NCBI RefSeq assembly: GCF_005239135.1
Contig: NZ_QKNX01000002.1
Location: 124,001-188,000, forward strand
Length of the DNA: 64,000 nucleotides
From: Natronomonas salsuginis
GTDB taxonomy: Archaea; Halobacteriota; Halobacteria; Halobacteriales; Haloarculaceae
Direction of reading: 5' to 3'
Shown here: piece by piece, positions 27,606 through 45,607 of the stretch
Layout of the letters: each line of letters begins with the position of its first letter
Position numbering within the stretch: position 1 is the first letter of the stretch
The notes under the pieces: model-generated
What the model was told of the DNA's origin: nothing
Seen by the model: the letters and a program-made list of their open reading frames with translations, nothing else
Databases searched by the model: none
Made by a program: the position numbers and the translations under genes

Positions 27606-27890
27606 ATGGAATGGCGACTCTTCGCGAACCTCGCAGAGGCCGCCGGCACCAAGCGCGCCGAGGTCGACGCGGCGGCCGGTGACACGCTCGGTGACGCCTT
27701 CGAACGGCTCCTCGGGGCCCATCCCGACCTCGAACCCACCGTCGTCGACTCCGACGGCGAGCTGCGAGAACACATTCGGCTGTTACACAACGGCGACGAC
27801 CCGTTCGCGAACGGTGAAGGGTTCGACACCGTCCTCGAGGCGGACGACCAACTCGCGCTGTTCCCGCCCGTCAGCGGCGGCCGCCGGTGA
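27606..27890 (+). CDS. samp1: SAMP1-type ubiquitin-like protein with GGRR tail
   Basis: 94 residues with the MoaD/ThiS beta-grasp fold. MEWRLFANLAEAAG and the end LALFPPVSGG match Haloferax SAMP1, which is conjugated to lysines after adenylation of its terminal Gly. Here two Arg codons follow the Gly-Gly (AGC GGC GGC CGC CGG TGA). The extra residues would block activation unless removed, as with ubiquitin precursors. SAMP1 also serves as sulfur carrier for molybdopterin or tungstopterin synthesis, which is relevant to the aldehyde ferredoxin oxidoreductase 1.2 kb downstream. Confidence 0.85.
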   Translation: MEWRLFANLAEAAGTKRAEVDAAAGDTLGDAFERLLGAHPDLEPTVVDSDGELREHIRLLHNGDDPFANGEGFDTVLEADDQLALFPPVSGGRR

Positions 27891-29075: not shown

Positions 29076-31022
29076 TCAGTCGTCGGCGGGCGCGGCCGAA
29101 TCGCCCGCAGAGACGCCGGTTCCGGGTCCGACGTCGATGTCGAGTTCGTCGAGCTTTTCGTCGGTGACGACGCCGTCGATCCAGCCACGCACGTCGTAGT
29201 ACTCGGCTTTCATCTCGTCGAGTTCGACGAGGCTGCCCTCGACGCCGCCCTGTCCGGGGACCGCGCCCTCGGCTCCCTCGACGAACCGCGCCGGGAGGTC
29301 GTCGTCCCCGCCGTCGAACCCGTTGAGGTTGTTGTAGTAGCGTTCGAGGGCGTAGATGCGTTCGCCCGCGGTCAGCAGTTCGTCCTCGGACACGTCGCGG
29401 CCGGTCATGCCGTTGTACTGGAGGACGTACTCCTCGATGCCCTCTGCGAAGGCGTTGAACTTGCAGATGTCGAAGCTGTCGGAGATGGCGTGCATGTCCT
29501 GGAACGTTGCGGTGAGCTCGCCTTTCCCCTCCCACTCGACGGGGTCGACCTTCTCCGGGATACCCAGGATTTCGGCAGCCGGCGTGTATCCGCGCAGGTG
29601 GCACGCGCCGCGGTTCGAGGTCGCGAAGGCGATGCCCATCCCTTTCATACAGCGGGGATCGTAGGCGGCGATCGTCTGGCCCTTCACCGCGAGGGAGTTG
29701 TCGTGGGCGTCCATGCGATCGGCGACGCGACGGGGGCCCTCCGCGAGCAGATCCGCGAGCTCGCCGTCGCGGTTCGCGATCCGCGTGAGCATCTCGATCA
29801 TCTCCTCAGAGTCACCCCAGTCGATCCCCTCACCGAGGTCGTCGAGTTTGCCTTCCTCGGTCATCTCCATCGCCATCGCGAGCATGTTGCCCGCCTCGAT
29901 GGTGTCCATGCCGTGGTCGTTGCAGCGCTGGAGCATGAGCGCGATCTCGTCGCGGTCGGTGTGTCCCGAGTTCGGACCGAGCGCCCACGCGGACTCGTAC
30001 TCGTAGGACTCGGTGCGGACGTTCATCTCCTCGCCCTTGTGCATCACGTCGACATCGACTTCCTTCTTGCAGGCGACCGGACAGGAGTGACAGGTCGGCT
30101 CGTCGACGAGGATGTTTTCGCGGACGTTCTCGCCGGATACCATCTCGGCATCGAACGCCTCGTCGTCGCTCCGGAAGCCGCCGCCGCGGGCGTCGCCCGT
30201 TGAGGTGAACTTGCCGTTCCTCGTCGGCAGCCCGGACATCTCCTCGGTCGCGTTCATGAGGACGTTCGTCCCGTACAGCGAGAGCCCGCCCTCGTTGGGC
30301 GCGGTCACGTCGGACTCCTGGATGAGCTGCATGGCCTGCTTGTGGCCCTGCTTGAACGTCTCCGAGTCGGCGGGTTTCGGCATCTTCGTCGTGGATTTGA
30401 CGACGACGGCCTTCAGGTTCTTCGAGCCCATCACGCAGCCGGTGCCGCCGCGGCCAGAGGCACGGTCGTCCTCGTTCATGATGCAGGCGTACCGGACGCC
30501 GTTCTCGCCGGCCTCGCCGATACCCATCACTGAGAGGTTCCTGCCGTACGCGCCGCTGACTTCCTCCTCGAGGGTATCTCGCGTCTCGTGGAACCCCATC
30601 CCCCACAGATGCGAGGCGTCGCGCAACTCGACCTCGCCGTCCTCGACGACGGCGTAAACGGGCTCGTCCGCTTTCCCCTCGAACAGCAGGCCGTCGAAGC
30701 CGGCCCACTTGAGCCGAGCGCCGGACCAGCCGCCGTGGTGGGAGTCGGTTACCGTCCCCGTCAGCGGCGATTTCGTACAGACGGCGATCCGACCGCTCAT
30801 CGTCACTTGCGACCCCGTTAGCGGCCCGTTCATCAACGCCAGGAGGTTCTCCGGGCCCATCGGGTCGACGTCGGGGCCTTGATCGAAGACGTACTTGACG
30901 CCGAGCCCCCGTGCGCCGATATATTTCTCCGCGTCCTCCTGATCGATACTCTCGTAGTCGACGCTTTCGTCCGTGAGGTCGACGCGCGCGATGTGGTCGT
31001 GAAATCCACCTAAATCTGTCAT
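29076..31022 (-). CDS. aor: Aldehyde ferredoxin oxidoreductase family (tungstopterin enzyme)
   Basis: 648 residues, normal AOR length. It oxidises aldehydes to acids with ferredoxin as acceptor, using tungsten-bis-pterin and one 4Fe-4S cluster. The N-terminal domain has ARGLGVKYVFDQG and SGRIAVCTKSPLTGT; the cluster ligands are CHSCPVACK and a late DICKF Cys. Haloarchaea have several paralogues, so the aldehyde is not defined. The start MTDLGGF was chosen over five extra upstream residues. Two perfect inverted repeats lie just upstream, and I see no clear TATA box, which suggests regulated expression. Confidence 0.93.
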   Translation of the reverse strand: MTDLGGFHDHIARVDLTDESVDYESIDQEDAEKYIGARGLGVKYVFDQGPDVDPMGPENLLALMNGPLTGSQVTMSGRIAVCTKSPLTGTVTDSHHGGWSGARLKWAGFDGLLFEGKADEPVYAVVEDGEVELRDASHLWGMGFHETRDTLEEEVSGAYGRNLSVMGIGEAGENGVRYACIMNEDDRASGRGGTGCVMGSKNLKAVVVKSTTKMPKPADSETFKQGHKQAMQLIQESDVTAPNEGGLSLYGTNVLMNATEEMSGLPTRNGKFTSTGDARGGGFRSDDEAFDAEMVSGENVRENILVDEPTCHSCPVACKKEVDVDVMHKGEEMNVRTESYEYESAWALGPNSGHTDRDEIALMLQRCNDHGMDTIEAGNMLAMAMEMTEEGKLDDLGEGIDWGDSEEMIEMLTRIANRDGELADLLAEGPRRVADRMDAHDNSLAVKGQTIAAYDPRCMKGMGIAFATSNRGACHLRGYTPAAEILGIPEKVDPVEWEGKGELTATFQDMHAISDSFDICKFNAFAEGIEEYVLQYNGMTGRDVSEDELLTAGERIYALERYYNNLNGFDGGDDDLPARFVEGAEGAVPGQGGVEGSLVELDEMKAEYYDVRGWIDGVVTDEKLDELDIDVGPGTGVSAGDSAAPADD

Positions 31023-31034
31023 AGTAATCGTTAG

Positions 31035-31046
31035 CACTAGCTAGTG
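31035..31046. promoter_or_regulatory. Perfect 12-base palindrome upstream of aor
   Basis: CACTAGCTAGTG is its own reverse complement and lies 13-24 bases from the aor ATG, where a repressor would cover the transcription start. Confidence 0.4.
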
Positions 31047-45322: not shown

Positions 45323-45607
45323 TTACCGTCGGCCGCCCTGCATCGCGGGGAACAGCTGAATTCGGGCGTCCGGCGGGCAAGCGTCGTCGAGGTCGGCGCG
45401 CTCGCCGTCGACGAGGACTCGCACGCTGGTTCGAACGTCACCGCTCTCATCGAGCACGTCGCGCCGTGCTCGCGGATACGCCTCGAGGAACCGTTCGAGG
45501 GCGTCTGCGACGGTTTCGACGGTCCCCTCGTTCGATGCCGCCGGCTCCAACTCAATGGTCTTCTCGCCCGTCGCCGATCGAAGTTGGCCGTAGACGGTGA
45601 ACTCCAT
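45323..45607 (-). CDS. MoaD-like ubiquitin-like protein with GGRR tail
   Basis: 94 residues of beta-grasp type, MEFTVYGQLRSATGEKTIEL to RIQLFPAMQGGRR. As in the SAMP1 gene at 27.6 kb, Gly-Gly is followed by two Arg before the stop. It differs clearly from SAMP1 in sequence. It may be a sulfur carrier or a protein modifier. The start MEFTVYG fits the family; nine upstream residues in the frame do not. It is convergent with formamidase. Confidence 0.8.
   Translation of the reverse strand: MEFTVYGQLRSATGEKTIELEPAASNEGTVETVADALERFLEAYPRARRDVLDESGDVRTSVRVLVDGERADLDDACPPDARIQLFPAMQGGRR

Follow-up and report, generated by a model that had tools for sequence, protein, structure and literature searches.

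The window analysed here, a stretch of 64,000 nucleotides from the genome of Natronomonas salsuginis (2.90 Mb, 12 contigs, 99.9% complete), encoded the ubiquitin-like small archaeal modifier 1 (SAMP1) at positions 27606–27890 of the plus strand. The translated protein of 94 amino acids (MEWRLFANLAEAAG...DDQLALFPPVSGGRR*) had the C-terminus FPPVSGG-RR-TGA. On the same strand, the codons of Gly91-Gly92 (GGC GGC, 27876–27881), the pair that is activated and after which cleavage is predicted, were followed by the codons of a tail of two residues, Arg93-Arg94 (CGC CGG, 27882–27887), and by the stop codon TGA (27888–27890). The translation, with both arginine codons in front of the TGA, confirmed the first-pass annotation of a SAMP1 ending in VSGGRR. 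The protein matched the NCBIfam SAMP1 equivalog model NF041918 over its full length (residues 1–92; 113.2 bits, cut-off 60) and the Pfam ThiS model (39.8 bits). It aligned with the Haloferax SAMP1 structures 2l83, 3po0 and 4hro over residues 1–92 (E = 2e-22), with the two arginines outside the alignment. The native sequence of these structures terminates at VSGG, as the earlier annotation had stated for Haloferax SAMP1. Judged by sequence matches only, the protein would have the beta-grasp fold of ThiS/MoaD, and its Gly-Gly is predicted to be open to an E1 enzyme only if the arginines are trimmed off. Downstream of the SAMP1 gene lay a 653-residue open reading frame (29076–31037, minus strand) resembling aldehyde ferredoxin oxidoreductase; a 2010 survey links such genes to ThiS-family ubiquitin-like proteins (Ubls) in other archaea (PMC2948915).

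The genes with which SAMP1 would act were all located outside the window. A UbaA-like E1 (contig C2, 66862–67569; ThiF, 278 bits) was encoded about 2 kb from an HvJAMM1-type desampylase (C2, 69722–70114; NF041370, 166 bits, cut-off 130), which carried the JAMM metal motif HxHx(7)SxxD (HSHPHGPLEPSDTD). MoaE (94.9 bits) was found on contig C4 (114065–114388), and so was a second JAMM protease (127718–128026). At this locus (around C4 127700–128100), the latter adjoined a cytidylyltransferase-like gene, a neighbourhood matching the Jab-cytidylyltransferase tandem described in the 2010 survey (PMC2948915).

In 20 genomes of the genus Natronomonas, FPPVSGG was kept in every SAMP1, while 16 of the proteins continued into a tail and 4 stopped at the Gly-Gly. 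The tails were RR (2), CRR, RRR, AR (3), GR (2), SRK, KVQ, CGAG, CEAG, SSVAQRPV, SGVSQTLV and DGGVAQRPV. SAMP3-like proteins of the genus stopped at FPPVAGG in 8 of 10 cases. Chance or a sequencing error was considered as the origin of the two arginines and rejected: the nearest tailed relatives, two further Natronomonas species, independently ended in VSGGRR-TAG and VSGGCRR-TGA, and an error is unlikely because the tails recur in independent species with different stop codons. The SAMP1 tail of Natronomonas is therefore real, and its sequence is not conserved. Arg-Arg as a specific signal was likewise dismissed as a general rule, since the tails are too diverse within the genus and across the haloarchaea; Arg-Arg is one tail among many variable ones.

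The collection of SAMP1 C-termini suggested in the first-pass annotation was made on one set of 230 genomes, each a species of the haloarchaeal class. Up to any tail, the proteins ended in PPVSGG (227 of 230) or PPVTGG (3 of 230), so that the Gly-Gly was kept in all of them. Tails were present in 46 proteins, spread over 12 genera and four families (f1, f3, f4 and f9), and parsimony on the SAMP1 tree gave approximately 13 gains and 4 losses. Most tails were 1–8 residues long. Chance tails would be longer, with a median of 57 residues when untailed genes were read past their stop codon and 41 residues after a frameshift; short tails are thus favoured. Most tails look near-neutral. A few SAMP1 genes encoded much longer extensions after the Gly-Gly, of 113 (L128, genome G076), 47 (L077) and 37 (L317, genome G296) amino acids, which could be due to stop loss or assembly error or could be true precursors.

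We consider it probable, on sequence evidence, that SAMP1 of N. salsuginis is made as a precursor that is cut after Gly92 by the desampylase before activation by UbaA. As translated, SAMP1 has Arg-Arg behind the Gly-Gly whose adenylation by UbaA is required. The desampylase, as a zinc protease of the JAMM type, would then hydrolyse the Gly92-Arg93 bond and bare the Gly-Gly end. Once activated by UbaA at Gly92, the mature SAMP1 could serve in sulfur transfer with MoaE and be conjugated to lysines. We infer the cleavage, its site and its timing before activation. With such trimming at hand, species with a desampylase would be under relaxed constraint as to where SAMP1 stops, and short, variable tails would arise repeatedly.

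HvJAMM1 of Haloferax volcanii is known as a deconjugating enzyme that removes SAMP1 from its conjugates. It also separates SAMP1 from MoaE when the two are fused through a peptide bond, and mass spectrometry placed the cut exactly behind the Gly-Gly. This SAMP1-MoaE fusion supports growth dependent on the molybdenum cofactor (MoCo) only when jamm1 is present; the uncut fusion cannot do so (PMC4443979). The Natronomonas system resembles that of H. volcanii in its orthologous SAMP1 with the VSGG motif and in the desampylase equivalog, UbaA and MoaE encoded in its genome. In contrast, H. volcanii makes its SAMP1 free of a tail, so precursor trimming has no natural need there, and the cut of a peptide bond after the Gly-Gly is known from an artificial fusion.

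A tail that has to come off should be found only in species with a protease able to remove it, and this prediction was put to the test. A desampylase, defined by the single model NF041370 at E ≤ 1e-8, was encoded in 215 of 292 genomes of the class. The co-occurrence was strict: tails were found in 46 of 162 desampylase-positive genomes and in none of 68 desampylase-negative ones (Fisher's exact test, p = 1.3e-8). Since relatedness inflates this value, the test was repeated by genus, within families, without large genera and by gains. At the genus level, tails occurred in 12 of 46 genera with the desampylase and in 0 of 20 without it (p = 0.013). Permutation within families gave p of about 1e-4, and with two genera left out, the biggest of the tailed and the biggest of the negative ones, the counts were 24 of 129 versus 0 of 53 (p = 1.7e-4). 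Desampylase-positive branches, 63% of the length of the tree, received all 13 inferred gains (p about 0.002). When only strictly independent, well-supported pairs on the SAMP1 tree (about 90 columns) were admitted, too few were left for a test. The link between tails and desampylase is a correlation, and in part a phylogenetic one. SAMP1 lacked a tail in most desampylase-positive species, and tails are gained and lost between sister species; the desampylase would therefore permit tails rather than require them.

A different ubiquitin-like gene in the window bore on the same association. At 45323–45607 on the minus strand lay a SAMP1/MoaD-like paralog of 94 amino acids (counted from the ATG), which matched NF041918 close to its cut-off (61.2 bits, cut-off 60) and also ended in GG-RR (FPAMQGGRR). 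The paralogous family was patchy, being found in 42 of 194 genomes of the class (E ≤ 1e-15), and it was not found in the three sister species that this sample included. Of its members, 20 of 34 from genomes with the desampylase carried tails, and 0 of 8 from genomes without it (p = 0.004), these eight coming from only a few lineages. The tails included RR, SR, SRK, NGA, SVTHD and TVRDPAA. The family constitutes a modest independent repeat of the pattern seen in SAMP1.

The trimming enzyme could be the product of some other gene that co-varies with the desampylase. Removal of the tail by another protease, be it a carboxypeptidase, a second, universal JAMM or general proteolysis, is quite unlikely in our estimation. 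In its favour, the tail-desampylase association is correlative, the proteases surveyed were JAMMs, and two C-terminal arginines are a plausible carboxypeptidase substrate. Yet 76 of 76 genomes tested had a weaker second JAMM or one or more Prok-JAB matches, including all 68 desampylase-negative ones, in which this JAMM scored roughly 36–50 bits (Pfam Prok-JAB) and was of the same kind as the second JAMM of the positive genomes. This second JAMM did not predict tails, as all 68 negative genomes had one and none had a tail; the association is thus specific to the HvJAMM1 type. A carboxypeptidase, for its part, would have to strip tails as different as S, RR, SVGR and SSVAQRPV and nevertheless halt exactly at the Gly-Gly, and the same dependence on the desampylase was seen in the paralogous family. 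The first-pass annotation had named a JAMM or a carboxypeptidase-like protease. The JAMM is favoured by the distribution of tails and by the cut that HvJAMM1 makes in SAMP1-MoaE, while nothing pointed to the carboxypeptidase.

The small size of a two-residue tail would also fit a SAMP1 that retains it and acts without a free Gly-Gly, either non-covalently or through an E1 that tolerates the extension. We regard this as very improbable. The Gly-Gly was intact in 46 of 46 tailed proteins, which would be unexpected if it were never exposed, and the SAMP1-MoaE fusion is inactive until cut by HvJAMM1 (PMC4443979). Tails were, moreover, missing wherever the desampylase was absent. The earlier proposal that this SAMP1 needs trimming gained support, as a prediction, from the Gly-Gly kept in every tailed protein and from the restriction of tails to genomes with the desampylase.

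An addition to trimming by the desampylase, rather than a competitor for that step, is that the tail serves as an adaptive cap: it would keep the precursor inactive until it is trimmed, the level of desampylase would set the supply of SAMP1, and the final arginine would be part of the signal. We consider this unlikely. It is consistent with the shortness of the tails relative to chance read-through and with a bias at their last residue. In 8 of 12 genera, arginine was the last residue of 50% or more of the distinct tails, compared with an expected 17–25% (p = 0.0002–0.003, post hoc), and a final arginine was present in 27 of 43 distinct genus-tail strings of SAMP1. However, tails vary between sister species and were lost again four times, and arginine was not in excess in the paralogous family (about 5 of 20 tails). 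The final-arginine bias is unproven as a signal. The first residue after the Gly-Gly was serine or alanine in 28 of the 43 SAMP1 tail strings and likewise in most paralog tails, which could reflect a preference of the protease.

The letters of some tails may also be fixed by constraints on the DNA beside the stop codon, which would weaken the case for a cap. In Halorubrum-type genomes (genus g17; loci L260, L273, L280 and others), a conserved TAGATCGGTCGTTTCAAACG was located directly 3' of the SAMP1 tail and stop codon, with the next ATG about 30 bases further on. It resembles a promoter for the gene downstream, placed right against the stop codon of SAMP1, and its conservation at this position suggests a constraint at the DNA level on the tails of these genomes. 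In Halalkalicoccus and others, the DNA of the tail appears to run into the end of a convergent gene. At L116, L134 and similar loci, the stop codon of the gene convergent to SAMP1 appears to be supplied by the complement of the VSGG codons, and the 3' ends of the two genes would then overlap.

Cleavage of SAMP precursors by JAMM proteases is already known from Caldiarchaeum subterraneum, in which CsJAMM cleaves the SAMP precursors Csub_C0702 and Csub_C1603 and CsRpn11 cuts CsUb-pre (PMC6043591). The two systems are alike in having archaeal Ubl precursors with residues past the Gly-Gly and in trimming by a JAMM, which in haloarchaea is a prediction. Caldiarchaeum belongs to another phylum. The haloarchaeal tails are short and highly variable, with polymorphism among sister species, and lineages that have naturally lost the protease offer a test of their presence. 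A bacterial parallel comes from thioquinolobactin synthesis in Pseudomonas, in which the JAMM protease QbsD processes QbsE, a protein ending in GG-CF. As predicted for the Natronomonas SAMP1, a dipeptide past the Gly-Gly of a sulfur carrier of the ThiS/MoaD fold is removed by a JAMM protease, but QbsE belongs to a dedicated biosynthetic cluster and is no general modifier. Ubl precursors are commonplace in eukaryotes, in which Atg8, for example, ends in Gly-Arg and is cut by Atg4. Atg8, SUMO and NEDD8 carry a short extension past the active glycine that has to be removed before E1 activation, as is predicted for the haloarchaeal tails. Their processing enzymes are cysteine proteases rather than JAMMs, and no shared ancestry of the processing enzymes is proposed. 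Eukaryotic precursor Ubls are listed in PMC11354881.

Outside subscription papers, the literature we searched contained no description of haloarchaeal SAMP1 occurring naturally as a precursor, of such a precursor depending on the desampylase, or of HvJAMM1 acting on precursors in haloarchaea, and the available part of the 2010 survey of C-terminal Gly-Gly motifs in archaeal Ubls does not mention residues after the Gly-Gly (PMC2948915). For genome annotation and diglycine proteomics, residues after the Gly-Gly should be treated as removable. Tails have been gained and the enzyme lost naturally within one archaeal class, which amounts to a replicated experiment on the mutual dependence of a Ubl precursor and its protease. 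Tentatively, and with more doubt than conviction, the desampylase may have a second job in the maturation of SAMP1 and the paralogous SAMP; the enzyme that undoes sampylation would then also be needed to start sampylation and to make MoCo in tailed species, with the tail as a cap tying the supply of SAMP to the level of desampylase. If the tails must be cut, deletion of the desampylase in Natronomonas or Halorubrum should, unlike in Haloferax, abolish both sampylation and the molybdenum cofactor.
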